Shown piece after piece: positions 34,387 to 58,444 of a DNA stretch of 64,000 bases. The notes under the pieces are model-generated. The model was given only the letters and a program-made list of their open reading frames with translations. It searched no databases and was not told the origin of the DNA. Origin of the DNA: Gracilaria domingensis (Eukaryota > Rhodophyta > Florideophyceae > Gracilariales > Gracilariaceae). Position 1 is the first letter of the stretch, and the number at the start of each line of letters is the position of its first letter. The stretch covers positions 1 to 64,000 of the forward strand of contig VCMS01000279.1 in the NCBI GenBank assembly GCA_022539475.1. Direction: 5' to 3'. The translations under genes and the position numbers were made by a program.

Positions 34387-37300
34387 TCATTCAAATCCAA
34401 GAAGTCGGTACTTGACTCCATCTCGATACAGGTTGTTAAGATCAGCACCAATGACAGAATCCAGAAAATAAGTTCGTTTCTCCTTACGACGACCCTTTGT
34501 TCTTTGAATCTCTTGCTCAACAATTGATATCTGTCTCGATATTACTTCTACCGACTCCACAGAGTATATGGTAAAGATTGAGCCCTCCGTATCGAATCCC
34601 TTCTTGAAAATCTGCTTCTGAATTCCTCTTTGTAGCCCGGAAGACGCCCATCCGACGAGACAAAGTAATTCAGTTAAGCCCGAGATATCTTTCTCAAAGA
34701 ACAGTAGAATCTTACCGTAGTACATACTTATGGTATCCTCACAGTCGCCACGGTAGTTTCCAACTATGTAGCAAGACGCTCGACTGTATTCTTCTACTTT
34801 CTTCAACATGGAAGCCGAATACGTTGTAGTATACCCATCCTGGGCCTTTTCGTCAGTCATTCGACCCCAGGTAATCAGCTCCGTCCCTGAATCTAGTTGA
34901 AAGTCATGACCTGAATCACAATTCCTAGCTTCATAATCTTGAAGAAGCTGCTTTACATCCCATCCAATGAATCCGGATATCTCGTTGATTTCGCGAATCT
35001 TTCTTGGGTGTAAAAACAGGAATCCCTCCAACTCTCGTCTGGACCCGAATTGACTAAGTGAAGCACGTCGCTGTTCAGAGCCGTCCGCCAGGTGACGCAA
35101 AGATAAATCATTACTTAAGCAGTACATCTTGGCAGCCTCTATCAGTTTCATCTTCTCCAGTACGTACTCAGCAACTTTAAAATGTAGAATTGCATCGTCT
35201 GTTTTGAGTTCCAACAAAGTTCTCCACAGACCACTGCAAGAGGTAGGACAAAGGTCCACAAGACCTGACAGACTCCTCGAGATGGAGAAGGAAGTGATAC
35301 ACATACTTACAGAGATGAATTCGTTCTGGTAAACCTTTGTAGTATGTGGATGTAAAATGTGTACAGAATCTCCGTGATAGAAACCCAATCTGTACCACCT
35401 CAGTCTCAGTGAGCTCCCATTTCGACAAAAGCTTGCAGAGCTCGACGAAGCAGCTCCATCCAGTAAGCAGATGCTGGGGTAATATGCCATCCAAGACAAT
35501 CAAACTGAGATCAATTACAAATGCCTTCCACTCGGTGGCCTTTCACCTTGCCCTCTTCCTCAGCTCCCGGGGTCTTCTCATGCGGTCATTGCAAATACTT
35601 CCAGCTTTGAAAAGGCGGTTGCTAATGTTCGTCTGGTCTTCTTTGCCGCGAAGAGCGCATATGTCCTCAAAGGTGTTCGAGTCGCCACACCAGATAGAGA
35701 CAATATCGGGGGCGATGTTCTCGTACAGTAGATGCATTAAGTCAATCGGAAATCCGTGAAACCGTTCGACAAACTCTAACTGCTCGACAAGTGGGCATAC
35801 ATTCGGTGATTCAATCCCTAAGTCCTGGCATCTCTTGTGTAGTTCGGCAGCAGAGAGTGATTTCTTAACACCATTAAGATCTCTTATAGATGTCTTAAAA
35901 CCGATTGCGTCACGAAGCGGGAGGTTGTTAGGATCCCAAAGTCTTTTGATATGAATCACACCATGTTGGTCTTCTTTCAGAAGCGGAGGGTAGTAAACAT
36001 GTCGGCGGCTTGCGACGAATATTCCCTTAATGAGACAAAACCTACATGGAACGAGCCCATTATCACCCTTGAGGTTGGTGAGCTTCTTCAACGCCGCGAG
36101 ATATCCCATTACATATATGAGATGCACCCGAATCTTTCGCGTTACGCCGTCCCACATAAGAACATCAATACCTTTCCTGATCTGTTCAAGCTCCCGCAAA
36201 AGTGGATACAGAAAGGAGTTAAGATCGCTCGGAGCATTTGGTCCAGGAATAACCGAAACTGGCATCATGTTCTTCACCTTGTAGTGTTCGGAGGGATCCA
36301 CATTTAGGATCATCAGAATTACTGGCCAGTAGCTGTACTCTACTCGTTTGAAGGCATTAACTCCATCTGTAGAGAGAGTTAGAACTATGTCATACTTAAC
36401 GGCCTTAATACTTCCAAGTTTCTTGCCAGTGTCCTGGAAGATTCGTCCCGATACGAAATCCACCAGCTTTCTGGGACCGTTCTGAGAAACAGAGCACTTG
36501 AGACTTTTCCAGAGGTATGCATACAGTTCACGTCCGGCAGAAGAGTTACGAAGTCGAGCGCGAAGTCTGTCTTCGATGGGAATGTAGGTGAATGTAGAAA
36601 CTACAGAAGGTATTTGTTGGCATCTAGGGTGAAGGCAATGCTGCATAGTCTCCAGAGTTTTGGATACCAAAGACATATGTCCTTGATTGCAGTACGGGAA
36701 CAATTGAACTGGAAGTTGTGACTCTCGAATCAGAGCACGGCGAACACCAATCCATGACCTGTAAACGGCATCACGTTCAACCAGAAGGTCGTCCATCATT
36801 TCCGTCGTAACTTGACCATGTTTCAGAGCAAAGGACACAAGAAAGCCATGATCTCTCATGAAGTAGTAAAATTTGGTACGGTTTCCGTCAGTGTCTGAAT
36901 TACTTCTAGCTTCATTCCAATGGTCGAAAGATATATGTTTTCCTCCGGAAGCGCTGGAATCCCAGGCACTCCGACTACTCAATGAAGGAAGTGAATCAGT
37001 TTCATCGGTTGGGAAGTTTCTTATATCCACTTCTGGATCGGCTTCAAAATGAGGCTTTAGTGAGGATTGACCTCTTGAAAGGCTAAGATCATCACTTTCG
37101 GTGTATTTACCACAGGAAAATCGGCTAAACTGCTAAGAAGAGGACTGGATATTGATGCATTGTTGATAATCTCGGGAGTAGGAACCTGTAAATCTATGAG
37201 CTCAGAGCTGAAAGATAGTTTCGATGTTTCACATTGTTTCTTTGAGGCCAATTGCTGAGACGGTATCTTTGCATGTCGCCCACATTCCTCTGTGCTGGTA

Positions 37301-37557
37301 TCAGAAAGTGCTTCCTCGAGTGGACGGGGAGGCTGAATCATCCTCGGATTGCGTGGGTTTAGTGTTCTCCCTCGCTTCAGCGCTTGAAGATAGTGTCTAA
37401 AAGCTGTAGTGCGAGTAACAACCCTACCCGGTGGACACGGGCATCGACTTTGTGGTGAGCATCTATACCCTCCCATCATCAGATGATTTACTGAACGTGG
37501 ATGAGATGATGAGATGTTGAGCTCGGTATAAGAACGGGCGCAGGAACCGAGATGCAA
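34387..37557 (-). pseudogene. CACTA (tnp2-type) DDE transposase, damaged
   Basis: N-terminal part (37557-37057) has a Cys-rich segment RCSPQSRCPCPPGR. After a shift near 37060 the main frame (37030-35177) contains LTLSTDGVNAFKRVEYSYWP, SVIPGPNAPSDLNSFLYPL, a Cys pair PCRFCLIKG and the block DLMHLLYENIAPDIVSIWCG, all typical of CACTA/Plavaka transposases. A single TGA at 35543-35545 interrupts it. The frame resumes directly as KATEWKAFVIDL, then the conserved C-terminal region (WSCFVELCKLL, HLCKYVYHFLLHLEESV, GPLSYLLQWSVENFVG). It then shifts near 35215 into a charged tail ending at 34387. Cut-and-paste transposition enzyme, nuclear. Terminal inverted repeats were not located. Confidence 0.8.
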
Positions 37558-37856
37558 TTCGGATCAATGCTATGCATGTGAAAAGTCGCAAGTAAAACCC
37601 ATGTCATCGACGAACCGAAAAGAAAGACTTTCGGTTTTCTTCACGTACTTCTACGTCCGATGTTCTGCCTTCCCCTTCGAAAGTCTTCTCATGACTCATG
37701 CGGTTCCCCGAAAACGCATACTTCGTGACGACTTCACGATTCTTCCTGCGGCGTCTACCAACTTTCATCAAGCCTTTCTCTTTCATTGCCCTCAGTACTT
37801 GCTTGTGATTCTCATCCGTGGCTCGCTGCCTGGCTCCAACGTCTACCATCACGTCG

Positions 37857-39260
37857 ATGAAAAACGATGTGCTTCCCCACCCTGTCAACCTTGCAGTGAG
37901 AGGCAAGGTGTATGTTGGGGAACATCTCGCACTATGCATCGAGAAGTATAATGACGGTGTGACAGAAGAAGCAAATAGATTGGCCCCATTGCCATGCAGT
38001 GAGAAGGCCTACTCAAGGCGACTTATGAAATTTGTCGGTGAAGAATTTGAGGCGTCGAGTCTCTTTCATCAATACTATGGCCGTCTCACACTCCAAGAGA
38101 TGGAGTCGCAGTTTTCCAATCGCCGTTTTGAGTTTCAAACCGAGCTTCGGCGCATCATGTCCGAGATGGCACGTAGCTTTGAACACGTTGCTGCTACGAA
38201 GAACCACTGGGCTGCATACGAGGCAATTAAAGCTAAGTTGGTGAATCGAAAGGCCGAAAGAAAGGCTGAGAAGTGCAGGAGAGCCCGGAAGAGAGCAGAA
38301 GCAAACGGAACTGCGTTGCGAACCTCACCTAACGAATTGTCCAGAATGAATCAGAACAAGGTGAAGGCGGACAGAATTCGGGCTGGAAAGCACTCGAAGG
38401 CCGCCATGGCCAAGAGATCGAGCAGTGATCTGTGCCATAATAGATCAAATGATGCTGCGGGCAAAACTGTCAGTTCTAAGATTCCTCAGAATGAAGCTAT
38501 ATGTCAAACAGCTGAATACAGCTCAACAACAGTTCCTGTCTCTGACACGAGGTCAAACCAAAAGGACTCGTTCACACAATCTTCTGAAACGTCAGGGTCA
38601 TCATTGGATATCAGTCAAAGTCGAGGGATAAAACGTCGTCGTTCTGAAAGTAGTAGAGAGAACAAGCGCGCGAAGACTTTGAGGCCTGGACAAAATGGAG
38701 GAGGATCCCAAATGAAACAAAAGAACCAAGAACACTTTGAACACAGTGACGAAATTGAGAGCCAACTTGATCCTAATGAAGACGCCGTGAACAAGTCTGA
38801 AAGTGACACTGGTGAGAACAACACTAGCAATGCCCATCGCAAAGAATTAAAGTGCATTGAAACCCATAGGAAGCGGGTGGAAACCGAGATGGAAGACGAT
38901 AGTGATCACGGCGATGAGTCCAACGGGGAATCCATTGCGCCTGTTCGCCATGTCCCAGTACACAGATCATCGAAGAACAAGTTGAACCAGCAGAGAAACA
39001 TGAATGTCAATGACGGTGGGTGCAAGAAGGAAAGGGTCTCAAGCCGGTCTAATCGGGTCACAGATAGAAAGTTGAACAAGAATCTTGGGGCTGGTGAAAA
39101 GAGGAAGCATTTGCTGCAGTGTCTTCCAGTAGATACGAAACGGTCGTTTGACCACAAACAGTCGAAGAAAAGTAAGAAGAACAATGTTGGAAACCACAAT
39201 CAATCTTCAAAGTCATCCGGAAAAGTTCAAACAACTTCGGAATCTTCTAGAGAGGTGTAA
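37857..39260 (+). CDS. Large basic, disordered protein next to CACTA transposase
   Basis: The start is placed at MKNDVLPHPVNLAVRG (37857). 467 residues without stops: a structured N-terminal 110 residues (VGEHLALCIEKYNDGVTEEA, FHQYYGRLTLQEMESQF) followed by a long Lys/Arg/Ser/Asn-rich, coiled-coil-prone tail (KAERKAEKCRRARKRAEAN). Divergently arranged with the transposase, about 300 bp apart, so the two may share a promoter region and may be the two genes of one CACTA element (compare TNPA/TNPD of plant En/Spm). The pairing is inference; no family recognised. Confidence 0.5.
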   Translation: MKNDVLPHPVNLAVRGKVYVGEHLALCIEKYNDGVTEEANRLAPLPCSEKAYSRRLMKFVGEEFEASSLFHQYYGRLTLQEMESQFSNRRFEFQTELRRIMSEMARSFEHVAATKNHWAAYEAIKAKLVNRKAERKAEKCRRARKRAEANGTALRTSPNELSRMNQNKVKADRIRAGKHSKAAMAKRSSSDLCHNRSNDAAGKTVSSKIPQNEAICQTAEYSSTTVPVSDTRSNQKDSFTQSSETSGSSLDISQSRGIKRRRSESSRENKRAKTLRPGQNGGGSQMKQKNQEHFEHSDEIESQLDPNEDAVNKSESDTGENNTSNAHRKELKCIETHRKRVETEMEDDSDHGDESNGESIAPVRHVPVHRSSKNKLNQQRNMNVNDGGCKKERVSSRSNRVTDRKLNKNLGAGEKRKHLLQCLPVDTKRSFDHKQSKKSKKNNVGNHNQSSKSSGKVQTTSESSREV

Positions 39261-40568
39261 GAAGTCATCTCAAACACATACAATGGTAGTCCTCAAATGT
39301 GCTCCTGCATGCTTGCCGTCGGGGATTTAAGATCGGGTTTTTGCAGGTTTTTCCGACTCAACACCATTGTGTGTACTATGTTCAAGCTATTGATCTTCAA
39401 AGTATCGTAAACATGACATGATTTGTCCATTGTAACATAATGAGCAAGAAAGTAGTCTCCGAAACAATAATCGCAGTGCTCTTCTGTACAACTTCTCCAA
39501 TGTTCCACACTGATTTCTTACAGGCCTGAAAGCTTTCTCGTCAGATGATGTAAGTAAAAGCACAGTGATATACTTGATTCGCGAAAGAGAGTTTCAATGG
39601 TAACGTGTTGGAGAGTTAGATAAGGGTTCGAGTAGAGAAATGGCAGAGCAGTATAGATTTGGTTTGCGTACATACGTTAGCGGTAGCCTGATCCCATCAT
39701 TTCCAACCTAGTCCGAACAACTGCAATACATTCTTCATCCGCGTGTTTATGCTGTTCAAACGCCATGTACTTGCACAATTGTGAAGCTTAGTTGTTTGGA
39801 ACAGCTGCACCATGATCTACTTCGACGTATTTCTGTGTTTTGCAGACGCCATATTGAAGGAATAGCACACCTGAAACCCACAGTTTAACATTGCCATTGC
39901 ATCATACATGGATCCATGTTGTCAAAGATCTAAGACACAAGTTCGCAGAGAGGGGCGATGAGGTCGCTTTGAGCACAGCATATGTCCCGTTGGTAAGCGT
40001 TGTAATCAATTCAGCTAATGCTTGAAACTGACAACGTCGAGTCACTCCAGAGGTGATATCATCATTTCAGAACGAGATTCAGGTCCAGAACATGTGTTCT
40101 TCATACCCATCACGGTTTCTGCACTCGCGTGCAACGCGTTTTGTCCTTGAAATCTTGGATGCAGTTTTCCAGGCTGGCGCAATTATCTTGGTTGCAGAAC
40201 TCCCCAAAGAACCTCTCCACATGAGCGCCATGCGAAGAAGCGTTCGTTACAACCATTCTCCCAGTTTGTCTGTTCAAAACTGAAAATGGAGACGATCAAG
40301 GAAGCCGCAGTGTCACAGCACAGTTGTAATAAGGGTATCCTTACCCTGTACGGGGAAGACCGTACTGCGCCACGCAATTCATTTCTCACTGTGTTTCCAA
40401 AACCATCTTATTGGTTGAGAGTGGGACAGCATTGTTTCGATGCACGCAAATGAGTGGCTTAAAGAAGGGACAGGAAATGACACGTATAAATGTTCAACAG
40501 CGACAGACGGAGTTCTCCGAATTGCATAAGCTGAGGAAAACCATCGGGACGACAACGATATTGTTTCC
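39261..40568. other. Non-coding spacer
   Basis: 1.3 kb with only short frames and no motif I can name. Confidence 0.5.
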
Positions 40569-41129
40569 ATGCCTTCGCACCTGAACATGGCTTCTTCCTC
40601 CACAAACCATTCCGTTGCGCGCAACATGCCGGATGAGGATTCAACATCACCATCTAGTTCTTCACCACAAACGAACCTCCGTTTGCCGCAATGTGGTGTG
40701 GTTTCATCCGTTGTGCTCAGTTCCGCCAAATTCATTCACATTGTTCAGAAAGAACAAACGGGAGCTTTCTTCAAGTATGCAGAGCATTATGAAGGCTCCC
40801 CAATGTCGTCCCCGAATTGGGCTCAAATCCGTCCCAGACAGGGACCTTTCAAACCCATATTTTGCACAGATGTTTCAAAAAGTAAAGAAGCCATTAGGAA
40901 GCAGAAATACAGAAGCAAAGCCCAAAATCGATCGAAAGAACAAGCTGCTGCCCGAGCTCGATACAAACGGAAACGGTCTGATAAGACTGGAGCTAGGAGC
41001 AGTACATCAATCATGTCAAGTCATTCAAATGCGAAGCTAAAAGATTTCTGTGAAAACAATTCAGCTTCATCTTCTGAAGAGCCGCAACCTGCCACAGGTT
41101 CGTCTTCTTCGTCTCTCTCTGACTCTTAG
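40569..41129 (+). CDS. Basic hypothetical protein
   Basis: 186 residues from ATG to TAG. Serine-rich N-terminus, a central segment FIHIVQKEQTGAFFKYAEHY, then a strongly basic KAQNRSKEQAAARARYKRKR stretch with a likely nuclear localisation signal, ending in a serine tail. No recognised family. It resembles the tail composition of the 37857-39260 protein and could belong to the same element. Confidence 0.4.
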   Translation: MPSHLNMASSSTNHSVARNMPDEDSTSPSSSSPQTNLRLPQCGVVSSVVLSSAKFIHIVQKEQTGAFFKYAEHYEGSPMSSPNWAQIRPRQGPFKPIFCTDVSKSKEAIRKQKYRSKAQNRSKEQAAARARYKRKRSDKTGARSSTSIMSSHSNAKLKDFCENNSASSSEEPQPATGSSSSSLSDS

Positions 41130-41932
41130 CTTGTTCTTTTGACTCTTCTTCGTCAAGTTTGACTCTTTCCGGATCTGAAACAAGTCTAGGTTTAAGACCG
41201 CACTTGATACCAATTGATCCACAGGCAGAAGGGAACGTATCCATTGCCGAGAACGTAGGACATGATGGAACAGTCGTTTCCACTGAGATAACAACACTGT
41301 ATGAGGTGGAGAGATGGTATCATGAGTAGACGGCCGGATCAAATCATATGCAAAAGGAGGGAGTGTGTTTTGTGGTCAAAAACGATCCAGAGAAAGGTAC
41401 TCGTCTGCTAGAATTATCAACCCCGAATGAAGAAGGTTCTGTTGAATGAAATGCTCGCCATGTATTTGATGGATGTCATATGTCATGATCTGCCAACCTA
41501 GTAGCCCATGAAAGCAATATCATTGCTGTGCTTGGTAATGCTTTTCATAATCCTACCAGAAGTGTTTGACAAAAAAGAAAAGACGTAAGAGCTCTTCATT
41601 GCTCCACGCTGCTTGCATGACTGCGCAATGATGAATGAAACAGCCTTCTGTTCTGCTAAAATTACTACAGATTGTTTCGCCCTGAAACACAAGTGCATCG
41701 CTGGAGTTTGAATCAATAGGAAGGGGCTCATAGACCCCGATGTGCTCGAGTCTATCGCGAATACCGAAAATTAAATTTGTTCCGTAGTAGTAGGATCCTT
41801 CTCCTTTTCATATTTCCATTTCAGAACAGGTATCATTCCCTTCGGTACGTCCTCGATAAACAGATACTCAAAGATAGAGTCGTCCACCTCTGTCGCTTCA
41901 ACAGCAGTCGTACTGTTCTCTTGAGCTCCATT
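41130..41932. other. Intergenic
   Basis: 800 bp, only short frames; nothing recognised. Confidence 0.5.
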
Positions 41933-42931
41933 CTATATTGTTTTAATTCTCGCTGCATTTGGGGATGGAGAAACTGGGGACACCGAAGTTGAGCGCGAGC
42001 CATGCCCTGAATCTGACTCAGTCGATGTACCAGCTCCCTCGCGAATAGGACTATCTAATACTGGAGAAGGTGATGTGGAGTTCTTCTGCTCTTTCGATGA
42101 AGCTGGAACGGTCTCTCTGCCGTTTATTTTCGTCCGCTTCACACGAGGGTCGCTGATGTGATTAGATTCGCCTTCATCTTCCCCAGCTTTAGGCTTACTT
42201 TTTGGTTTAGGCTCAACGTTAGATTCTTTCTTGGCTTTCTTTTTCCTTTCCTTCTTCAAGGGTAGACTGCCATCTTCAGTTGATCCCTTCTGCTTGTAGA
42301 GCTTTCCATCAGCAGAGCCCATATCCTGCTTCGCCGGTTTTGTACTTGAACCGGATTTCGTTGCATTCTTGTCCTCGGAGAAATTGTACTGATTCCCAAT
42401 CACTGGAAGTACTACTGATTCTCGAAGGATAGGGAGTAGATCGGCTTTAACAAACTGTAGTCCTATAAATCCCGATTCTGAGGCTTCTTGAACTAATTTT
42501 TCAACTTCAGCATGAATATCTGATATCTCTCGGTCATAGTAGTGATGCCTTGCGAACACATAGTACTAGGAAACGATGAAACCCGCGATAAACAAAGCAC
42601 GGAGCAATCTATGTGGGATCTGAACCCAGAGTCGACCAACGCTCACCTCACTTGCTTCAGATGAAAAATGAGATACGCACGATCTTAATGGTCGCAAGAT
42701 CTTTGACTGCGAGCCAGGAATTAAGGAACTCCGGCAATGTGTTCGTTGACGTGATCCCCTGAACTTTGAGGTACGAGGGGGTCTTTTGCGTGTGCGAGAT
42801 AAGACAGAGTCGTCCGCAGATGGATACTCCAGGTAAGCTCGGGTCGCGTCGTTCACAGAAGCATGCCTTGGGTGAGAGGCAACAAGAGGCGGGCGGGTTA
42901 AATTTCCTACCATTGGACACACCAAGTGCAC
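41933..42931 (-). CDS. Hypothetical protein, probably two exons
   Basis: The 3' frame (42565-41933) begins without an ATG, directly after a splice-acceptor-like TTTCCTAG. Upstream, GAG|GTGAGC at 42646 is a good donor. Removing 42566-42646 (81 bp) joins HFSSEASE to YYVFARHHYYDREIS in phase 0 and gives about 305 residues. The second exon holds an alpha-helical segment (DIHAEVEKLVQEASESGFIG) and then a long Lys/Ser/Pro-rich disordered tail. The first exon is less certain, since another frame across it also looks coding (TLPEFLNSWLAVKDLATIK). Function unknown. Confidence 0.45.
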
Positions 42932-43130
42932 GCGCGGCTCCCTTCGAGATTATGGCACAGCTTGCAGTTTCGATTCACAAATATCGCCTGGGAGCAGCGA
43001 AGATATTCGCGACTCTTCGAATTAGGTTAAAACAACTCACTAGTGGCAGCTAATTGCAGTCGCCGTGGACGTGGCCTCGATCACATACCAAGAGTAGTCC
43101 TTACACTCTACGATGGATGATACCTACGAA

Positions 43131-43949
43131 ACGCTGGGCACCCCCGCTTTCGGCAGCTCCTCCCAGCGCACTGCCAGTCTCGTCCGTGTCCGTGTCCGCT
43201 CTCTTCTGAGGTCGGTGTCCGTGCCGCTTCGAGCCGGTGCGATAGCGTCGCGTGTCGGCCACGTCGCGATTCGGAGCTATTGCAAAGGTCGCGTATTGTG
43301 CTAAAAGTCGCGGATCAAGTGGGTGTGAAGCGCTAGTTTTCTCTAGTTTGATATATGTGCACGGCGTGTGCAGCGAAATCACTGCCGGAAGTGCCGGGAG
43401 GAGTGTTTTGGGAGGAATCCGGAGGGTGCCAGAATGTGGCCAGAACGTGCCCGCTAGCGGGGGGGGTCGGTCGTGTTAGGGTAGGTACCCTAACACGACC
43501 GGACCCCCCCGCCCGCGGGCATAAAATCAAACATTTTTCAAAAAATCGCCCAAAACGTGCCCGCGGGCGGGGGAGTCCGGTCGTGTTAGGGTACCTACCC
43601 TAACACGACCGACCCCCCCCCGCCCGCGGGCACGTTCTGGCCACATTCTGGCACCCTCCGGATTCCTCCCAAAACACTCCTCCCGGCACTTCCGGCAGTG
43701 ATTTCGCTGCACACGCCGTGCACATATATCAAACTAGAGAAAACTAGCGCTTCACACCCACTTGATCCGCGACTTTTAGCACAATACGCGACCTTTGCAA
43801 TAGCTCCGAATCGCGACGTGGCCGACACGCGACGCTATCGCACCGGCTCGAAGCGGCACGGACACCGACCTCAGAAGGGAGCGGACACGGACACGGACGA
43901 GACTGGCAGTGCGCTGGGAGGAGCTGCCGAAAGCGGGGGTGCCCAGCGT
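43131..43949. repeat. Long inverted repeat (~390-bp arms, ~37-bp spacer)
   Basis: The left arm from 43131 (ACGCTGGGCACCCCCGC) and the right arm ending at 43949 are nearly perfect reverse complements, separated by the AT-rich 43521-43557. The right arm is the leader of the methyltransferase gene at 43994. Inside, the 13-mer CCCTAACACGACC or its complement occurs four times, marking transposon-like termini. A transcript across it would form a long double-stranded RNA. Confidence 0.93.
43488..43591. mobile_element. 104-bp mini-element with 33-bp TIRs at centre of the palindrome
   Basis: Starts CCCTAACACGACCGGAC and ends GTCCGGTCGTGTTAGGG; the inverted ends extend to about 33 bp with one mismatch, through CCCGCCCGCGGGC. 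It is flanked by TAGGTA (43482-43487) and TACCTA (43592-43597), and beyond each of these another terminus of the same sequence faces away. CCCTA-starting ends match those of the MITE at 17315-17732. Confidence 0.7.
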
Positions 43950-43993: not shown

Positions 43994-46494
43994 ATGGATT
44001 CCACTGATGATGGAGAGGAGATACATCCTATCGACATGACCGCTCGGCCTCCGGCGTTCCATGCATATACCAGACTTTTCTTGGTTCTTCGCGATGCTTT
44101 GGCAAACAGCGATGGAGGCTCTGATCGGCTACGGGACGTGGGGTTTAGAGGGTTAATAGAGTTCTGCGCCGAGAACTATAAGAGTATTCCGGAGGCAAGG
44201 AAGATGTTTGAGGAGGCCACTAACTCCAAGAACCTGCAGAACTTGACACTGCAACAGCTGCGAAAGAGTGTTGTGAATAACAAACCTGTGGAACAACGAT
44301 ATTTTGTGACGAAGCTTCTTGACAAGAAGGACGGGGATGAGGACCAGAGACTGCGCGATTCTTTCCTTCTCTCTATGGATATGGGTATATACCTACCGGT
44401 GCGATGCCTGGTTGGTTATTTCATGACCAGGAGAAAGCAGGTTCTGAAGACGACAGTGTTCATCCCACCAACAGCTGTGAACCCATTTGAGGTCGTTATA
44501 TACTTATCATACCTCGGCCACATAATGGGAGAGAACGACAACATCAGAATGATGAAGAAGAAACAACCGAAAAAGAAACGAAAAGTGAACCATGCACCAT
44601 CTGTGTACATACACACTTTTACGTCGTTCTCCAAAGACAACTGTGATCGACTGGGATTCGCTATCAGTGAGGTCGTATGGGCATGGAGTTTTTTTGCGGC
44701 TCATCTTGGATACACGAACGTTCAGCACATGGTGAAACCATACATTTACATGAATATGCAAACGTTGAAGTATACAGCGCTAGAGACACGGGAGTCTGGT
44801 TATGCCCCGCCGAGCCAGAGTACTCGATTCAACACACAGGATGTGCCACAGAGCAGTACTAGTGGATCGGTGGAGACCTTGAGTGATGAATGCGATACAA
44901 AACTCCGAATACTCGCTAAGGAATTTTTTACAGACCTCGAAACCATATGCACCCACGATAGCCTCTATAGCTTACAGGCTGATCAGATGAGGAACTGGAT
45001 AGAGTTTTCGGAGATACGGATGGATACTGTATCTGGTTCTGACTCGGGTGAGTTGCCTGCTCGATTTCAGAAGTTTTCGGAGTTGCTATGGAAACCGATA
45101 CAGGATATGCGTCATGCGGCAGGGTTCCATTTCGGCATTCACGCGAAACCTGATATTGAACTGACGAACACCCCTAAGACTTCCGGTAATGCCGAACCTT
45201 CTTCGACCAAGTCTGCCCCACCCCCACCTCGTCGAGAGTATATGAACCTCGTGAGCTCCGATAGTGACGACTTCGAGAAGCCGGTGAATCTTGCGGAGCA
45301 TGAATCTCGGGTTGCCGGTTACAACATCCAAAAGACTGGTATTGAGCCGCTCATGAAGGGGATATCCAGTCTCCTTCGAATGAATATGGACAAGGTGTGG
45401 AAGGGGATGAGAAAGTCACACTTTGTAGCGTACAACTGTGGCATGAAGGACCTGAGGCACACACACGAAACGTTTGTTTTTCAGAGTGAGATTTTATGGC
45501 GTGAGGCACAGCTTGTCCTAACAGACCCTCCTTTTAACACTCGAAGGAAGAGGAACAAACGGAATATTGCTCACGATTTCTTCAGTGAGGATGACATGAT
45601 CCGTACGGCTGACTTAATAAGTTCCGCGCTTCGGTCAGGTTGGCACTTCATTATATTCTGTGCCATGGCACAGTTTCATGTTTGGCACAGGATACTTTCG
45701 GAAACGGCGAGTACGAAAGATGAAGCTGGAAGCAAGGTAAGCCAGAACTCATGCCTTCGTCTAAAGTGGATGGGAATCCACTGGTGTTCATCCGGGATCG
45801 AAGTAATGTTGGAGAGAATCCACGGAAGTTTGGGATACAGCCCGTAACGGAGTACGCCGTTCATGGGGTGAAGCGTGGATTGCGACCATCGGAGGAAGCC
45901 AGTCTTACTCCATTTGAGGAGAACAATTTCATTCCTTCTACGTTCCCGGCTAACAGGAATCTAATTGACCGGGTGCCAAAACCGAGAGCGGGGGAGTGGT
46001 TGACATGGAAGGTAAATGAGCCAGGTAGTTCAGTACCAAGTGGGCAGTACATAAGACCGGAGCAGAAGTCCAGGGAGTTGATGAATGAGTTGATATGTCG
46101 CTCCACAAGACCGGGTGATCATGTCATGGACATGTTCGCGGGAACTTTTTCTACGGGTATGGCGTGCCTATCGCTGACAAAGCATAAGAAGTTCTTGGGG
46201 TGCGAGAAGAATAGGCCATGTTTCAGCCATGCGAAGCACCATATAACGACTCTTATGGCCGAAGTTCTTCTCGGGGGGAAGAATGACATCTTGGTTGAAC
46301 AGGAGGTGGTGGATGCGGCTTCAACGACTTATGAACGGGTTCCACATCGGGACCGAGGTCGGCTTGAATGGGAGGCTCCATTTGGATACCCCCAGTACCA
46401 AGTGATGCCTGCACATATTACTCAGTTCCTAGGAAGATACTGGAAGGACTGGGACTTTGTCCACAAGTGTGGCCAGCATACTGTAGATCGTTGA
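43994..46494 (+). pseudogene. Permuted (beta-type) DNA amino-methyltransferase, one frameshift or intron
   Basis: Transfers a methyl group from AdoMet to an exocyclic amino group of DNA (N6-adenine or N4-cytosine), judged from motif IV LTDPPF (residues 509-514, near 45518-45535) followed in a second frame by motif I DMFAGTFSTGMA (near 46129-46164). The order IV before I is the beta permutation. The N-terminal 480 residues are unlike bacterial enzymes and include PKKKRKV at residues 192-198, a canonical nuclear localisation signal, so this is a eukaryotic gene. Between the motifs the frame changes around 45740-45816: either a one-base shift before PSSKVDGNPLVFIRDR, or an 80-bp GTAAGC...AG intron (45737-45816). 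The TGA at 46492-46494 is followed in the same frame by a SET domain. Confidence 0.8.
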
Positions 46495-46524
46495 GAGGAG
46501 AAGTACCGAGGAGCTCTGAATCTA

Positions 46525-47130
46525 ATGGATATACATATGCTGTTGACTGTTGAAGCCAATCGCTATCGCTTACATGTAGCATCTTCTAAGATTCGACATC
46601 CCCGTGCTGGTATGGGGAGGTTCACGGAACATAAGATATTGGCTGGGGAAACTATCTGTCATTTCTATGGAACTTTGGTATACACGGATCTAACGAACCG
46701 GAAGGAAAGACACTTAACGTATGAAAGTGGCTGTCTCGGAGCAACCCCAGTGCGGTACAAGTTGTTTTCTATGATGGTCACTGTGACTGGTACGGAGTTT
46801 CTGCACCTGAGGAACAGACCAGGACAGGTTCAGGATAGAAAGGAGAGCGAAGTGTACATTGTCCCGGCGCCTTTTTGTATCGGGGGCTACATTAACGACG
46901 CCGGATATCATGTCGGGGATCCCGATTTATCGGAGCCCCGGTCAAACAGGACTCGAAGTGCCAATGTGCAGATGGTGGAAGCGAAGTCCGTGATACAGTT
47001 TAAGTCCGACCTTTCTAACTATGCTCTACTTCGTTGTAGAGCAGTAAGAGATATTGAGAGGGGCGAAGAGTTGTATTTCAACTACGGAGAGCAGTACGCC
47101 TGGGACTGGGCTCTGACATTGGAGCAATAG
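46525..47130 (+). CDS. SET-domain protein (lysine methyltransferase-like)
   Basis: 201 residues, ATG to TAG. N-terminal SET half: GMGRFTEHKILAGETICHFYG, with the G-x-G and G-E-x-I-x-x-Y/F-x-G pattern. C-terminal half: GGYINDAGYH in place of the usual R-x-x-N-H-S, then VRDIERGEELYFNYGEQYAW, the G-E-E-L-x-x-x-Y-G signature. No post-SET cysteine cluster. SET proteins methylate lysines of histones and some other proteins. It starts 30 bp after the methyltransferase stop and in the same frame (10 codons between), so the two may be, or have been, one polypeptide. Confidence 0.82.
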   Translation: MDIHMLLTVEANRYRLHVASSKIRHPRAGMGRFTEHKILAGETICHFYGTLVYTDLTNRKERHLTYESGCLGATPVRYKLFSMMVTVTGTEFLHLRNRPGQVQDRKESEVYIVPAPFCIGGYINDAGYHVGDPDLSEPRSNRTRSANVQMVEAKSVIQFKSDLSNYALLRCRAVRDIERGEELYFNYGEQYAWDWALTLEQ

Positions 47131-47375
47131 ATGAGTTTAGTACCGAATAGAAAGTAAGTATGCTTGTGAATGTTGCAGCTGCCTGCAATACGCATTGTAC
47201 ATGTACACTGGAGCTCTTCATATATTTGTAACGGCGATATTTGCGACCCATTGGGCACCTCAAATTCCTAAAAAGCAGGAACTGTGGAGTCTCCCGGAAT
47301 ATCTAAGCCATGCACCCCCCCCACCCCCTCCCCCCCACAACAATTTCGTTTCATTACCCCGTTTATCTCCACAAC

Positions 47376-49772
47376 ATGGGTAAAACGCCGAGAAAGCGAA
47401 ATAGTACGCAGCGGAACAAGAGTGGACAGAAGAAGAGAAGAGCATCGGATGATACGAATCAGGCTACAAGCACCGCACTTCCTAAATGGAAGTCGTCCTC
47501 GACGAAGGAGAGAGTCAGTGGGCGTCCTTCTACCGTACTCTCTCGCCCATCTCGCAGCGGAGCGTCTTCCGGGATTGCGTCAAGAATTCGTGGATCAGCG
47601 AACGATGTCATGCCGTCAACTGCCGATAATGCAAATCGTGCATCTGTCTCTGCTCCTCAAGAAGATGAGGTAGCTCGGCCCAGCGGGTCAAGACAGGAGG
47701 GCATGACAACTGGAACTGAAGAGGTTCGTATGACACCAAAACCTTCATGTCCCCGGCCGATATCGAAGACCGGAGCTACTGGGGCGCGGGTTACGCCGCT
47801 CAGTGGATCTGGACAACAACGGACAATGACGAGAAGTCGTGAGAGCCCTAGTATATAAAGATCGTCACGTCCCTCCCTGTCTTCTAGAACTGGGGCCGCT
47901 ATGAATCGTATTATGCCTCGCCATGGGTCCGGACAAGGGAGAAAGACAATAAGAAATCGAGAGACAACTGATAGACGAGTTACTCCTCGACCTTCCCCTC
48001 TTTCCAGAACGGGGAGCGTTGCAGCTCGTGCGAGGCCCAATTCTTCTGATATACGATGCCATGGAGGAGGACGGACACGGGGGTTGGAGCTCGGAGCCGT
48101 GCCAAGGGTGGACACAGAACGCCTGCAACCTCTCGTGTCTAAGGGTATGGCACATGAGGATAGTTCCGATAACGAAATAACACCGAATCCTGCGGCATTA
48201 CCGGGGCCTTTCGCCGAAGAGGCTAGGGAAGTACCGGAAGATATCCACACTGGTGTGAATTCAACCTCTATGAACAGACTTGATCTTTTAAAGGAACTGA
48301 ATTGCTTGAAAGAAAAGGTTAAGACGCTACAAGAGGACTTGGTGGTTCGGGGTATTCTAGTGACGGTCGCCCAAGAGCAGAGTACGGCTTTGAAAAAGAG
48401 GCTTGAAGAGAAGGATCTAGTCATTGAAGGGCTAAGGGGGGCACTGAAACAGGAGGGAGATAGGAGTACACGTGCTGGTGAACCTGGACAGACAGGTCGA
48501 AAGAAACATAAAATTAAGGTGTGCGATGAGTTTCGAGGGGTTGGTCGAGCAGTGTATCACAACATGCTGACGTGGGCAAGAAGAGAAACAAGTGAACTAT
48601 GGCTCGAAGGTGAGTCGCTCACCCGAAATTGGGGTAACCGTGCCGAGAAGGTGGAAGACGCAACTGAGAGTGGGGAAGGGCTTACTGAGCCGGAGGAAGG
48701 TGGTTCATACATGGTTCCTAAAAACCCCGTGGAGCTCTTGGGCAGTTTTGGCATGTTCACACCGTCGGTAGAGGGGGGGCCAGATGCTTTGCTGAAGAAA
48801 ATGGTTGAAAGCGAGTTGAAGGAGTTGAGCTGGGAAGGTATTAGAAAAGCATCTCTTACCGACAGGTGTATACTGGAACTTTGTGCAGATATGTGCCTTA
48901 GGCAGAGAATGCGGCAGACCATGAATGACTTCGTGGTTGTTCGTAAGAGAAATACGAGGGATAAACTATTTCTGCTCCTGGTGTACGATCTGATTTGGAG
49001 AAGAACAAAGCTGGTAGAAGAGAATGCTGACGAACTCACAATGCAGTTTAAGGAAGCGCAGGAGAACATACTGCGTCTTGACGAAAATGGTGTACCGAAC
49101 ACTTCATGGTGGAGAAAAGCCCCATTTGTTCGTCTAAAGTACTCCAATGCGGACAATGTCGAGAATATGCGGACGGAAGATCAAGACTTGTTCTTCCGAA
49201 ACCGTGTCGGGGTATAAGTACTGAAGGAGTTTATTGGGTATGATGTGGAAGACAAGGATACGGGCATCTTTTTAGAAGGCACAATACTGTTGCTCGCACG
49301 TTTGGACGCTTGGGTGTTGACGGTTGTGAGCCTTCTAAGTACGGATGTGTCAAGGGGTGGCCAGAGACAGAAACTGTTTAAAAAGAAGTTTGCCCAACTG
49401 CTACCTCTGTGTTTAAAGAATCTTCTGGGGGATGTTAGGCAACGTGTCTTGAGGACCAATTCCAGCCAGTTTCATAATTTTGGAACGAAAACGGAAGATT
49501 GGACTAAGGTTCTTGGTAATGACATGAGAGAGGCTACATTTGGATATCAAATGCCGTCGAACGGAAGACTTTACCTCACTGTGAAAGAACAATTTGCTAT
49601 TGACAGTGTGAGCCGAAGATTGGGGTCTATTAGCGATTGTTTCGTTGGTGAATGCGCGGAAGGGGATATGGATTTCAAAGAAATGGACATGAACGATTTC
49701 GGAAGTAGCACAGGATCACAAGAAAAGGCACCACAAGGGGAACATGTAGAGGATAGAGCCTTTAATGTTTAA
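47376..49772 (+). pseudogene. Large coiled-coil protein with two in-frame TAA codons
   Basis: Starts MGKTPRKRNSTQRNKSG at 47376. A single frame runs about 800 codons to TAA at 49770, interrupted only by TAA at 47856-47858 and 49215-49217. In order: basic Ser/Arg/Pro-rich N-terminus, a coiled coil (LDLLKELNCLKEKVKTLQED), a basic GRKKHKIKVCDEF motif, then a folded-looking helical C-terminal region (RAVYHNMLTWARRETSELW, LTDRCILELCADMCLRQRM, DKLFLLLVYDLIWRRTKLV). Third plus-strand gene of the cassette. Its stop overlaps the stop of the minus-strand Plavaka transposase by 4 bp. No family recognised; a DNA-binding or scaffold role is conceivable. Confidence 0.6.
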
Positions 49773-52700
49773 GGCTGTACAAGATCAACGTGCTCAGTTG
49801 GTCCTTCATCTGAATCATGATAGAATCGATTGATGTAGAATCGGTGTTGAAACCATTGAAGTGGAGGACAAAAAGGTGGAGCAGGGTAGTTTGATCGAAC
49901 AACATGGACAGTTCCCTGTAGTGCAGAAGCCGGAACCATCCCGTACCAAGGAGTTAACTCTACGATAGTCTCCGCTTTGGAATGACGAGGGAACGGAAGA
50001 GTGTGGTTCTTTTCATCGTTTGTAGCCCACCGTAAAGATATGCATTTCAATATGTGGTCGATGTTTGTTGCGGGGGGTAAAACCTCGAAATACCGGACGA
50101 ATGCCAGCTCTGGTGCGGTAAGTGCAGAATCAAGGAGAGATATTCGAATCAGAGCGACTACCTGGGCAACCCAAGTCTCTGAATCTTCTCCGCTTACCAA
50201 TACAGTGGAAAACTTTGGCTTTCTACTGGGACCAAATGCTGGAGAAGCGAAGACACGTTGGATGATGGGGTATTTGGGTCTTCTCAGCTTAAGTGCCTTA
50301 GAAGACGAATCGAAGTGTTCAAGAGTCGGAACGAAACCGCCTTTCACGAGAGCCGAATTCACCAGAGTTATCCTTGTCTTTTCTGGGAAGTATGTAATAG
50401 AGTGCTCATCCAGTGTTTCTTTCACGAGACTGAGGAAAGGAGGAAGGGCCTGTTCACAAATTTGGTCAAGAATCGACCTTGTGTCCGTACTTGAGAACAT
50501 CTCTCTAACAGCAGTCCATGTTTTTGAACTGGACATACTTGAAACACAATGTTGAAGAGCTCGTAAAGTGAAAGAACGCCCTCTCATTGCAAACCGAGGA
50601 AGCTGTGTGGAAGTTCCTGGTAAACCTGGATTACGCTGGTAAGGAGTATTGCCATTCCATTGCATTCTAACATGTCCGTGCTCAATGGAGAGAATAGTCT
50701 CGTCCACAGCCGTTGCTATTCTTCTGGACGTCTTTTTGTAGTGTCTCTTAAATAGCAGGTGTGCATGTTCGTATATGCCTGCGTCGTAGTAGTTGATACT
50801 TCCCAGAAGGCGAATATCGTCCACGAGATGATCGAGAAGATGAAACTTCAGAGTTCCCAGTCTGGACGGATGAAAATCCGCCAGAGTCTTTGTTGCGGAA
50901 CGCTTGAAGGCTTCAATCTCCGAATTAAGACACAGGAGAGAGCTTTCAGTCCAATACGGGTCACGATTGTATCTGAATAAGGTCGAAAGCAAGTCCGAGT
51001 ACTGAGAGAAAACGGTTATGATTGGGGCAACGTCCTGTTCTCCACAGCATATGTCAAAGAATGCTCCTATGAAGGGGAAGACCATGTCAAGTGCTTTGTA
51101 GTTTTTGGCCTCCAGCATTCCACGGAGACCGTCTTTCGTGAAGATACCATTCAAAGATTTGCCTTTCTCTTGCGTGGAGAAATCGATATGTAAACCTTTG
51201 GCAGGAGAATCGCGTTCTATGGCAGCTAGAATTGCGTTTGCATGGTTGAGGAGTTGGGTGCGTATCGTTCGAAATGAACGCGATGCAGATGTTCCTATTG
51301 TAGTGCACAGGGTGTCTGACTGCATTCTCTCGATTTTGGGCGTTTTTATCAGCTTCGAGATGCCGAGATGCAAGTTGTGTAATGGTTCGAATGAGAACAG
51401 ACTGTATGGAGACAATCCCGGGATCATTCCAAGGCTTACGGAAGTTTCGACGAACGAAGGAATGAGAGATATGGAATTTGAACGCATCAGAGTATCCGCT
51501 TGAGATCTCCTCTCCCTCGCACGACGTGGACGTCTTTCCGCCTCGCCTTTTATGCATGTTGCAAGATAGCTGTGTATGTCTTTCGGATGCTTTTCGTGTG
51601 CTTTTGAGAACGTCCGTTGAATGAGGTGGGAATAGGACTGCATAAAGATGAGCGAGAGGCTTCGCATCTATGACACGGGCTTTCCGTTCTGGTCCCATGA
51701 AGAATGGACAGGATTCCTTAGCCTCAGGAATATCCGCACAATAACTTGCAAGCAGAGGATGGCACACTCGACTTAGTTTGTCTTCGCCGATGAACTGAAA
51801 ACCTTTCTGCGTGAGATTTAGAATGGGCTCCAGGACTTGACGAAGAGATTCTTGAAGGATTTGCATCCTGGACTCGCGTAGAGACTTGCTAGAAACGAAT
51901 GGCATTGCGTCTGCTTCAGATGCGGAAGCCTCGATCAGTGTGGTAGGGAAGTATGCCACTACTGTGAGGTCATCACGGATACACTTACGGCGAAGCTCGT
52001 CGGAGAAGTTGAGAAATATGAGGTGAAGAGGATAGGCGGTAACCGATGTTTGCTTTAGAGTTGTTGAAGACTTATCGGTGTATACCTGCAGAAGACCTAC
52101 GAAAGATTCACTGTAACTTATTTCTTGGGAGTACCACACTATTCTACTATCCAAAGAGCCCATGACCATTTCCTTAAGTTTTGAGGTGGCGTCTCTTGCG
52201 AGAGAGCCGGACATGGGGTGAGATATTTTCGTGGAGTGGGTCTGAGGTATAGGGTGGAAGAATGTGTTTTCGTTGTTAGCCAACTGGAGCTGTTTCACAA
52301 GTGTCTGAACGGGGTCTCTCGTGTAGAGGGTGGCGCTGAACTTACATCCTTCTGGCGAGACAGTTCTTCGATTGAAACCGTCCTTTGAGGCGTATCGTTC
52401 GAAAATGGCGTTCTTCAGTTCTGTACAGCGCTTGAAACTTGTTATGGTCTCGTTGAATCGCTTTTGCGAGAATCGAGAGTCCCGAAGTACCCCAATTAGC
52501 TCGTCTGCCTCACAATGACCAAGGTTGGAAGCTACTGAAGCCAGACAAACCGTGAGATAATCCATATGCAAATCTCCGAGGGCCTCCTCAGAAGGCACTG
52601 GGCGGGAACTGCTTCCGTGTTCTCGCTCTAATGACGCGGGACCCGGGGAAGGAGAAACAGAATGCGAAGTGTCCGGAATGGGAGGGGCGCACGGAGTGGG

Positions 52701-52946
52701 GTCGACGATGTCCTCGGACACCGGAGGCTCGGGAAGGCGACAAGGGGCAGTGACCGTTTCGGAAGATGCAGTCGCTGGCGAGGAAAGCTTGAGACGCTTG
52801 CTTCTCCGAATGGGCCGCCTATTGTCGTCTTCCAGCCCTGCTTTCAGACGAAACGGGCAGTGGTTGACATGCTGTTGAAGAGATAAGACTCCTCGACGAG
52901 TAACGAAGGGGCACCCACGCCTCTTATGTGTACAGTAGTAGACCAT
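49769..52946 (-). pseudogene. Plavaka-type (CMC superfamily) transposase, one frame change
   Basis: The start is placed at MVYYCTHKRRGCPFVTRRG (52946), a C2H2-like zinc finger (C..C, H, C). A disordered basic linker follows, then blocks characteristic of Plavaka transposases: SFVGLLQVYTDKSSTTL, TAYPLHLIFLNFSDELRRK, VVAYFPTTLIEA, QVLEPILNL, CHPLLASYCADIPEAKESCP. The frame changes between 51667 and 51500, by shift or intron, and continues LFSFEPLHNLHLGISKLIK, then LGTLKFHLLDHLVDDIRLLG and YEHAHLLFKRHYKKTSRRIA, ending at 49769. Cut-and-paste transposition in the nucleus. Convergent with the coiled-coil gene, stop codons overlapping. Confidence 0.78.
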
Positions 52947-53315
52947 GGGAAGAAGAAATGAACGAGAAACGACGACAAAGACTGCAAGGGAAGGTCGTCC
53001 GAAGGGAGAAGGAGGTCGAGCGACAGTCAAGATCGACGTCATGCTAAGAACGGAGAATATATTTTGAGTTTAAATCACGTGCTTTCATTCAAAAAGGAAC
53101 GTAGGTACACGTCGACCTCAACACAAGGGTGTACTTCTCGTGCTATCTACTACTGGTTATAAACCTGCGGTTTTGCAACGTTGTACGCTGTACACCTGTC
53201 CAATCTCGCACAGAAAAATAAATCTCTTCCCTCCGCCGCCGCAGCCGCGCCTCCAACGTCCGACCTTCCGTTACCGTCGTGATCCGTGCCATCCACATCC
53301 TCGCGTTATACTCCG

Positions 53316-53728: not shown

Positions 53729-53760
53729 AAACCAAGTTGGTTTCTTGGCGATCTTGGATC

Positions 53761-54477
53761 TCTGAGTGTTCGGGATAGGCGATTCTGGTACTTGGTTGGG
53801 ACACAGGCTGCTCTTCCGTTTATCGCATCTTGCGGTATGTTTACTGCATGGGCATTCTTGGTGTCCTTGCTTGTGAGTTCTCGCTTCGACACCTTTCGCG
53901 TTTTACGATGATCGTAGGCTGGTAATCTGACCGATCCCTTTCCTTCTTCTTCTTCCTTTTGCGAGATACTAGGTCCCTCGAATTTTCTAGCGCAACGTTT
54001 CCGTTTTGCTTTATCAATTGTACGTTCCATCGCATTTCAAATGGATCCAACGGAGCATTGACTAACTTATGGATACTTTCTGCTTGCGTATGCAGGTAAA
54101 CGACCAATTTCATTTCGTCTCTCAAGATCGATGTCTGACTGTTCGGGATAGGCGATTCTGGTGCTTGGTTGGGACATAGGCTGCTCTCTCGTTTATCGCA
54201 TCTTGGGGTATTTTTGCTGCATGGGCATTCTCAGTGTCGTTGCTTGTGAGTTCTCGCTTCGACACCTTTCGCGTTTTACGATGATGGTGGGCTGGAAATC
54301 TAACCGATCCCTTTCCTTCTTCTTCTTTCTTTTGCGAGTTACTAGGTCCCTCGACTTTTCTAGCGTAACGTTTCTGGTTGGTTTTATCAATGGTAGGTTC
54401 CATCGCATTTCAAATGTATCCAACGGATCATTGACTAACTTATAGATACTTTCTGCTTGCGTATACAGGTAAATGAC
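53761..54477. repeat. Tandem duplication, ~373-bp period, two copies
   Basis: Copy 1 about 53761-54104, copy 2 about 54134-54477. They share GTTCGGGATAGGCGATTCTGG, the TTGTGAGTTCTCGCTTCGAC core and the GCTTGCGTATRCAGGTAAA end; about 10 percent diverged. Both copies keep similar minus-strand open frames (MERTIDK... / MEPTIDK...), but composition and shared decay give little support for a gene. Confidence 0.85.
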
Positions 54478-55075: not shown

Positions 55076-55441
55076 CTAGCATCTGCAAGAGACAGACGAA
55101 ACGGTAAGTCCTTTACACAGTTTCCTTATCTTTTCATCCTCCGCACATAGTTCTTTGAGTGCCACAAGACGATGAGCCACATCTATGAGGATACACGGAA
55201 CTTTCACGCGATTGCCCTCCACCATCTCCTTCTCGGACTTACCCGTGATCAAAATAGCAACAATCATCGTTCCAAGGGCCTGGAGAAACCGTTTCCTTCG
55301 AATCTCCGCCTTCAGAGCTTAAACATGCTCCCGAACTGTCCCTCTCACAGTTGCGTCCGGGATTTCGATTAGGTCGATGTCGACCTTCACGGACTCGTAC
55401 TCATAATGGTCCAGGGTGAACTTGAGCGACGCCAGACTCAT
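55076..55441 (-). pseudogene. Hypothetical protein, one internal TAA
   Basis: ATG at 55441 (MSLASLKFTLDHYEYESVKV), then after 40 codons a TAA, and the same frame continues ALKAEIRRKRFLQALGTMIV to a stop at 55076. About 120 codons. It begins 7 codons after the TAA of the upstream gene (55463) in the same frame, so both may once have been one reading frame. No family recognised. Confidence 0.4.
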
Positions 55442-55462
55442 ATTTACGTCATCCGAAGGTAA

Positions 55463-56470
55463 TTAATCACCTTCGTCGAATGGTTCATTGACGTTTCCAG
55501 CGAAGCTCTCCTTCACCAAGACAACGTCATCATCATCCACTTCATCCACATCCACAACTTCCATCCTAGCTCCACTGCGACTCCCAGCCATTGCAATCGC
55601 TTCAGCAGTGCTATTCCTAGACGACCCAGACTGCACATTCATCGCTGGTTGCTTTCGTAATGCAGAGACCGCACTCTCTGGAGTTGTGATCAATTGTGCA
55701 GTTCCTACCTTTGTACCATCCTGGTCTTGTTTAGATGGAGTTTTAGGCACAGGCCCAGGCGCTGGGGGCGGTACTTCCTTCCCCTTTTTGTTCTTCTGTT
55801 GTTTGCCTTCTGTTTGGTTTGGGCTACCTGAGGTGGCAACCGCTTCCGACTCGGTGTACGCGGGGGTTTCGGTGTTTCCGCTATACGCACTCGTTTCCCT
55901 CGTGTCGTGGACGCCGCATTGGTATGCCTTGATTTCTCACTGGGCACCTGCGGCGTGGTGTTCTGAAAGGTCTCACCCGAAGCCATGAAGTTCAAGTCCC
56001 AAGCATAGAAACCCATCTTGTTTATGTCCACAACGGTCTTCGGAATGAAGTCTTCATCCGTACACTTAAAGGGATACGGGTACGGTGTACGGAGCTCCTT
56101 AGATACATCAGCTGGCCATATACCGACTATATCCTCTCCCGGTTTCCCTTCGTGTGTGACCATGCAGTTCTCTTCGATAGTCTTTGCCGTCGCCGGCAGA
56201 CTTGATGGCCACCACATCAGCCGTGCCAATTGGGACCTTGTCCCCTCCATTTCCAGCGATAAGAAGCGTCACTTTGTCCCCCGGTGCTGGTTTCGCTTTC
56301 CCCGGGTTAGAGCTCATACGCATCTCCGGATTCTGTGCTTCATCACTACTCTTCTTCCCTCCTTCTTTTGTCTTCTTCGCACTTCGAAGATGCGGCGCCA
56401 TGGGGTTGCGAACTTTCCGCGGCTTTCGGGAGCGCCTCATCTGCCGGTTCCCAAATTCTCTTGGCTCCAT
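55463..56470 (-). pseudogene. Hypothetical protein with a small folded domain, two frameshifts
   Basis: ATG at 56470 (MEPREFGNRQMRRSRKPRK). Basic, disordered N-terminus, then PGDKVTLLIAGNGGDKVPIG, a frame change near 56190, and CMVTHEGKPGEDIVGIWP to KTVVDINKMGFYAWDLNFM. This stretch looks like a compact beta domain of about 100 residues. A disordered tail follows, with a second shift near 55790, ending in an acidic VDVDEVDDDD segment. I do not recognise the domain; an SH3- or BAH-like fold is possible but unproven. Confidence 0.45.
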
Positions 56471-56699
56471 TATATAGCGTGTTTGAATTTAGCTTCGTCA
56501 AACACCTATAAAGGTTGAATGCAGAACAAAGCGGTAATCGTATAATGCACTGATCACGTCAGAAAACGGCGCACCCGCTCGGTTTGAACACGGTACACGC
56601 TTTGCTGTCGGTTGAAGTGTCGCACCCGTTCGTATCGCAGATTTGTAGTGCAGCTCGCGGAAATGCTCGCGTGAATATTCGCGTCACTTTGAAAGAGTG

Positions 56700-58437: not shown

Positions 58438-58444
58438 GACGAGG

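Follow-up and report, generated by a model that had tools for sequence, protein, structure and literature searches.

A predicted DNA amino-methyltransferase fused to a SET domain in a large Plavaka-type transposon of Gracilaria domingensis

Element A and its insertion site

The window analysed here is a 64,000-nucleotide stretch of Gracilaria domingensis DNA (contig VCMS01000279.1, C279 in the searched genome of 77.9 Mb and 680 contigs). Element A (29891–55098), delimited by the termini and flanks of several copies, exact end counts and an empty-site test, is a large Plavaka-type DNA transposon with ends, a target duplication, a transposase and an empty site, and the mobile cassette proposed in the initial annotation thus takes the form of a defined transposon. 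The left terminal inverted repeat (CGTCTGTGTTCTGCA, 29891–29905, + strand) matches the right one (55084–55098, − strand, placed by copy termini and exact end count) imperfectly. Copies share a common right end (..CTGCAAGAGACAGACG) and a common left end (CGTCTGTGTTCTGCAAAG..) between unrelated flanks, and exact ends number 507 and 487 genome-wide (reversed controls 0 and 0). The terminal 169 bp are 98% identical to the window in the 39 other matches listed. The termini (CGTCTG..CAGACG) are those of neither fungal PlavakaA (TGT..ACA) nor fungal PlavakaB (CATCA..TGATG).

A 2 bp target duplication, AA, lies at 29889–29890 on the left and 55099–55100 on the right, as seen from the flanks and the empty-site test. 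Joining the window flanks gives a 184-codon frame across the junction, through which protein P0014 aligns (residues 371–659, E 6e-33); as the joined flanks restore this frame, 29891–55098 represents a single insertion, which interrupts the ParB-like gene of element B, an older and divergent element. The left part of element B (24084–29890, its left end set by terminal similarity) holds the left portion of a ParB-like/dioxygenase-like gene (27509–29889, − strand), and the right part (55101–58474) holds the rest of that gene (− strand) and a methyltransferase (MTase)-SET remnant (57061–58474, + strand) consisting of the N-terminal and motif-IV part only, with no SET match. Over all end pairs, 2 bp target duplications matched in 9 of 17 against a chance expectation of 1 in 16 per pair (7/10 in one set, 1/4 in another, and the window with AA; C165 and C164 did not match). 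Pairs bearing the MTase matched in three of ten cases (C8, C42 and the window) and pairs of 10–14 kb without the MTase among the matches listed in six of seven; the low rate of the former, a weak point of the evidence, may reflect recombination or mispairing of long copies. Because pairs without a listed MTase match have target duplications, the MTase-SET gene seems to be dispensable in cis for movement.

Element A measures about 22.4 kb in copy C165 and 25.2 kb in the window, where it has a foreign block within it. This block (31956–43130) has no blastn similarity to the full copy, contains a tnp2-type transposase (35543–37132, − strand, PF02992) and occupies the place taken in full copies by an ApbA-like gene, a pair of HAD-IIB hydrolases and the gene with the ParB-like and dioxygenase-like parts. 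To its left lies an ORF (30254–31387, − strand) with no Pfam family above cut-off. To its right, beyond the MTase-SET gene, are a third gene (47307–49772, + strand), which has no Pfam match and is an 832-codon open frame in C171 but is broken in the window, and the Plavaka transposase gene (49769–53069, − strand; PF18759, 57.5 bits against a cut-off of 26.3), also broken in the window; transposase frames of 1100 codons occur in 15 of the 76 matches listed genome-wide. A tandem repeat of period 373 (1.9 copies, 53757–54477) lies near the right end.

The methyltransferase-SET gene

Three pieces on the + strand represent the MTase-SET gene in the window. By ORF and motif reading, the first (43994–45847) carries an N-terminal domain with a sequence resembling a nuclear localization signal (PKKKRKV, 44567–44587) and motif IV (DPPF, 45524–45535). 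The second (45751–46494) carries the target-recognition part and motif I (FAGTFSTG, 46135–46158) and matches PF01555 (N6_N4_Mtase, E 1.9e-10), and the third (46525–47130), starting 30 bp after the stop of the second, is a SET domain (PF00856, E 9.5e-7) that in intact copies forms one frame with the other two. The four features listed in the initial annotation (PKKKRKV, DPPF, FAGTFSTG and a complete SET signature 30 bp downstream) are thus all in place, and these Pfam matches bear out its reading of a bacterial-type amino-MTase and a SET domain in a eukaryote. The first ORF alone gave no Pfam match reaching cut-off, and a homologue search with only this broken ORF found nothing useful. In the window copy the frame changes between DPPF and FAGTFSTG, and a stop codon falls between MTase and SET; as intact copies have neither break, the split appearance results from decay of this copy. 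Matches to the second ORF number 151 in the genome, itself included, and are mostly 85–95% identical among those listed, so that the motifs in the window are not due to chance. The repeat copy present in the window is broken.

Eighteen copies were fetched with their flanks for reading. Two of them (C171 and C257) encode the N-terminal domain, the MTase and the SET domain in that order in a single open frame, 1055 codons long or 1045 counted from the ATG. The 1045-codon frame is intact in seven of 17 full-length copies compared, a count that leaves aside the window and five partial loci (L005, L006, L007, L010 and L026) and is not that of a random sample, as copies were chosen for long frames. 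Ten frames of 1050–1055 codons without a stop in the match occur among the listed matches to the second ORF, and the seven are those that were fully read. The initial annotation had placed the MTase next to a SET protein; in intact copies the two are one fused protein and not two genes, and the idea of two neighbouring genes or of exons split by introns was dropped, since the frame is uninterrupted. A profile search, which the same annotation had proposed as a check, placed both families above cut-off in an intact copy (L012): N6_N4_Mtase (PF01555) covers residues 506–743 (E 4.4e-15, profile positions 2–215 of 221, 56.7 bits against 26.7) and SET (PF00856) residues 873–1032 (E 3.4e-7, 31.1 bits against 22.4). 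Three Pfam families in total were matched in L012 at E up to 1, with no chromodomain among them; nor was a ParB family found there by Pfam, so that ParB is not part of the MTase chain. The protein is therefore read, from its sequence, as an N-terminal domain with a basic stretch resembling a nuclear signal, a predicted beta-class amino-MTase like CcrM and DpnA, and a predicted C-terminal SET lysine methyltransferase.

A search of 4244 candidates matched 13 homologous proteins at E≤1e-3, with identities of 29–45% in the best alignment and 24–40% in the full alignment; at E up to 0.1 Pfam found N6_N4_Mtase in all 13 and SET in 12. The same genome has a second family (B, copy C12) in which the two domains are fused as well, 38% identical over 611 residues (700 residues were read from a listed frame of 1118). 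In a tree of 15 proteins, restricted to MTase-SET proteins and with some long branches, A groups with P0001 and B with P0002. The order of DPPF after which FAGTFSTG follows, which the initial annotation took as a beta-class permutation, is interrupted by the frame change in the window copy but is kept in the family, as DPP[FY], the target region and motif I ([FYC]xGT) follow one another in 15/15 proteins. A C-terminal [DNSE]YG occurs in 13/15, the window family among them (this pattern is missing in P0005 and P0009), and a K/R-rich stretch (at least five in 12 residues) precedes DPP in 13/15, the two exceptions being N-terminally partial proteins. Across 14 aligned proteins DPP, R.EQK, the D and GT of motif I and SET residues are invariant, invariant columns are present also between MTase and SET, and the SET tyrosine is near-invariant. 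Motif I of beta-class amino-MTases is glycine-rich, of the FxGxG type; in FAGTFST the first glycine is retained and the second is replaced across the 14 proteins. Searches for a source were weakly negative, with no relative in viral_contigs (two short patterns searched) or in genome_contigs, which would have pointed to a prokaryote (one pattern searched).

For the base modified, N6-adenine is the most likely and is favoured over N4-cytosine on the strength of DPP[FY] and of the nearest named structures, which are mostly those of adenine enzymes. CcrM and RsrI act on adenine, and the family profile has as its nearest named structures DpnA, CcrM, MboIIA and RsrI, together with two entries named just methyltransferase. 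In a single-sequence search the N4C enzyme PvuII ranked sixth of seven (E 0.054). The NCBIfam models CcrM, which NCBIfam names adenine-specific, and PRK11524 scored 25–26 bits against cut-offs of 292 and 830, making the protein a relative and not a member. All 15 MTase-SET proteins have DPPF or DPPY, and not the SPPY of the bdelloid rotifer enzyme N4CMT. As SPPY is found in most bacterial N4C enzymes and DPPY in bacterial N6A enzymes according to the available part of one report (PMC8885841), the analogy with N4CMT drawn in the initial annotation is weak. The SET profile matches (EZH2, KMT5A and KMT2C) are all weak, too weak for the target lysine to be named.

Simple counts over 18 aligned genes carry a selection signal for the MTase-SET gene, read with the qualification that copies were picked for long frames and that transition bias and relatedness are uncorrected. 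Substitutions common to at least two copies (46 N, 50 S, dN/dS 0.26, no stops) were compared by Fisher test with singletons (240 N, 131 S, dN/dS 0.52, 11 stops), giving p 0.003 for the whole gene, 0.005 for the MTase alone and 0.00013 for MTase, linker and SET together; SET alone (p 0.09) and the N-terminal part (p 1.0) were not significant.

The divergent gene and the palindromes

Copy C165, read from one end to the other save for 142 withheld bases and broken in places, shows from left to right as an ORF of unknown function, an ApbA-like gene, two HAD-IIB-like genes, a divergent gene, the palindrome region, MTase-SET, the third gene and the Plavaka transposase. The HAD-IIB-like hydrolases were assigned by PF08282 and the ApbA-like gene by eye, with no Pfam match for the latter in the C257 copy. 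The divergent gene matches two NCBI proteins of G. domingensis, a florideophyte red alga (94% and 89% identity); these matches displaced the fungal host that the Plavaka match had first suggested. The gene appears from its motifs to be ParB-like and dioxygenase-like, the ParB-like motif being assigned by eye. A 409-aa piece matched no Pfam family at E up to 0.1, at which level the pieces scanned gave neither a ParB nor a dioxygenase family, and NCBIfam and structure-sequence searches of the gene found nothing informative. For the dioxygenase-like part 93 matches were counted, in frames as long as 1308 codons (stop-free in the match), and the paralogue in the window retains the HTD and H at 45% identity. 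The divergent gene adjoins MTase-SET, in divergent arrangement, in both element A and element B. The same 100 bp segment (99%) precedes each of the two divergently placed genes, this one and MTase-SET.

Upstream of the MTase-SET gene in the window is an 819 bp inverted-repeat region with 336 bp arms at 99% (43131–43949). Exact pattern search locates in it a 28 bp palindrome (TCGTGTTAGGGTANNTACCCTAACACGA, 43471–43498) with a second 28 bp copy (43581–43608) 110 bp further on. This perfect palindrome has 1031 sites genome-wide (reversed control 0), often spaced about 110 bp apart among the matches listed. In the copies read the palindromes lie between the divergent genes and not at the ends, C165 having one more to the left of the element; they are also present inside forms of about 10 kb, and the equivalent part of element B yielded no such palindrome.

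Possible roles and related systems

The initial annotation suggested that the unit might silence itself, hide from defence or steer its insertion. Among the purposes considered for the fusion, we rank first the marking of the element by itself against silencing. That MTase-SET is an accessory gene of a Plavaka-type transposon whose product, with partners, marks the element and so counters silencing has in our estimate a slight balance of probability in its favour. The palindrome array between the divergent genes would be recognised by the divergent ParB-like/dioxygenase-like protein or by the N-terminal domain of the fusion itself, the fusion would then methylate the DNA of the element along with lysines on nucleosomes close by, and an opposing host mark would be erased by the dioxygenase-like part, with the joint outcome that the promoters of the element and its transposase gene would stay expressible. 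Such marking fits because a writer is joined to a writer, because there is a ParB-like and eraser-like partner and because the palindromic region is shared; from this we infer the recognition, the marks and their direction (activating as opposed to silencing). Against it count the absence of the full MTase-SET frame from most copies among the matches listed and the sequence of motif I, which is GTFST here versus GSGTT and GVGTT in two aligned bacterial enzymes, as do the apparent dispensability of the gene in cis, the motif-level assignment of the ParB-like and dioxygenase-like parts, the simplicity of the selection test and the negative palindrome search in element B. That the element brings a private chromatin state, one polypeptide writing N6-methyladenine and a lysine mark on the same copies, nucleated at parS-like palindromes by a ParB-type partner with an eraser-like domain, is conceivable but rather doubtful; DNA and histone marking would then be physically coupled.

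The main rival of a role against silencing is self-restraint, in which the fusion would place repressive marks on both DNA and histones at the palindromes of its own element, limiting copy number or harm and so buying tolerance. The available part of PMC8885841 connects amino-methylation in bdelloids with histone writers of the SETDB1 type and with the silencing of transposons, and EZH2 and KMT5A are among the weak SET profile matches, yet so is KMT2C. The 507 and 487 exact ends, with termini 98% alike among the matches listed, do not however suggest tight restraint, and forms without the MTase among the matches listed have spread as well, and we regard this explanation as unlikely. In the case of Dam and Tn10, methylation directs the transposase to the copies it cuts, and methylated terminal or internal sites could do the same here while SET opens donor or target chromatin; the MTase-SET gene and the transposase share one unit, but the palindromes read sit between divergent genes and not at ends and forms without a listed MTase match show target duplications, and such control of transposition is less probable still. 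It is about as unlikely as self-restraint that a single domain is catalytic, for example an active SET with an MTase that is a DNA-binding relic, or the reverse: the replacement of the second motif I glycine in all 14 proteins aligned, the SET domain undetectable in one of 13 homologues and the YG motif missing in two of 15 would fit, whereas the invariance of DPP, R.EQK and the D and GT of motif I, with the near-invariant SET tyrosine, in those 14 proteins argues against it. The separate ORFs of the window copy could also come from a contig chimera or a gene-prediction artefact, to which we attach a negligible probability given 151 counted matches over many contigs, intact fused frames, independent homologues and a clean empty site; a chimeric contig, named in the initial annotation as what would overturn it, is refuted by recurrence of the locus across many contigs.

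As a rule, distinct reader and writer proteins connect DNA methylation with histone methylation. In this case the two writers are apparently in one chain, kept together down to 24% full-alignment identity, and the transposon that carries the fusion has about 500 exact copies of either end. The fusion is a natural candidate for an epigenetic writer with both activities in a single chain, adds red algae and probably N6-adenine to eukaryotic bacterial-type amino-methylation, and makes possible a direct test of whether one protein marks DNA and nucleosomes at the same locus, protecting or silencing the element.

No MTase-SET fusion was found in the available parts of the literature searched, including those of a 2026 review of fungal 5mC/6mA (PMC13297926), and work on giant EnSpm elements of Bostrychia may describe related genes. 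As far as these sources extend, ParB–MTase proteins in algae, TET in fungi and SET in oomycetes are already known as transposon-borne, and the MTase-SET fusion is the addition. Among the closest systems are the algal transposons carrying ParB and N4C/N6A methyltransferase proteins (Sola1-1 of Ectocarpus and green and red algal cases; PMC12477816), which in the accessible part of that report are likewise giant, with a bacterial-type amino-MTase opposite the transposase and a ParB-like partner, and for which self-binding and self-marking have been proposed. They differ in that the MTase of element A has SET as its fusion partner, the transposase is Plavaka and not Sola, and the ParB-like motif belongs to another, divergent gene that also has a dioxygenase-like part. 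Bdelloid N4CMT shares with the fusion a bacterial-type amino-MTase in a eukaryote and a link to chromatin, but in the available text (PMC8885841) it combines SPPY with a chromodomain and the SETDB1-type proteins are separate, whereas here DPP[FY] and SET are in the same chain and borne by a transposon.

Fungal DNA transposons including Plavaka carry TET/JBP and make 2–3 bp target duplications (available part of PMC12730594), and are alike in that Plavaka is among the carriers of DNA-modification enzymes; theirs is an eraser between TGT..ACA or CATCA..TGATG termini, and here it would be a writer between CGTCTG..CAGACG. HarbingerS and MuDR of Phytophthora likewise have a SET gene inside a DNA transposon, but with other transposases and with no DNA MTase partner mentioned in the part of that source available (PMC12730594). 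The giant EnSpm elements of red algae (Chondrus, 16–20 kb with 4–5 ORFs in the available part of PMC6431247; Bostrychia, cited in PMC12477816) resemble element A in being red algal, related to CACTA/Plavaka and multi-gene.

Copies with an apparently common frame break

One frame break late in the methyltransferase part of the MTase-SET gene is apparently common to a subset of the transposon copies, although the break itself was read only in that on contig C211 (locus L065); the subset comprises this copy and, among the matches listed in the genome search with the second window ORF (45751-46494), those that cover residues 1-177 only. This apparent sharing suggests that a broken form has been amplified, with the proteins coming from other copies.

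Palindromes and cargo genes

Perfect 28-bp palindromes lie at 43471-43498 and 43581-43608, and the genome holds 1031 such sites, frequently spaced by about 110 bp among the matches listed. Their arms contain the telomere-like hexamer TTAGGG/CCCTAA. Copies on C257 and C165 (loci L027, L033 and L035) carry metabolic-looking cargo: two genes for HAD-IIB-like hydrolases, and one that resembles ApbA/ketopantoate reductase, a likeness judged by eye only.

Surrounding sequence

Insertion of the studied element broke element B, an older and divergent member of the same group, into two flanking parts (24084-29890 and 55101-58474). Element B retains the divergent gene pair, a ParB-like/dioxygenase-like gene and the MTase-SET gene, of which only the first part is present. 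Retrotransposon-like ORFs, reverse-transcriptase-like and integrase-like by eye from translations, flank the locus on both sides (1-24000 and 61000-64000). Elsewhere, a long run of N bases in the stored sequence of L028 (C257:35000-40999) adjoins one transposon copy.
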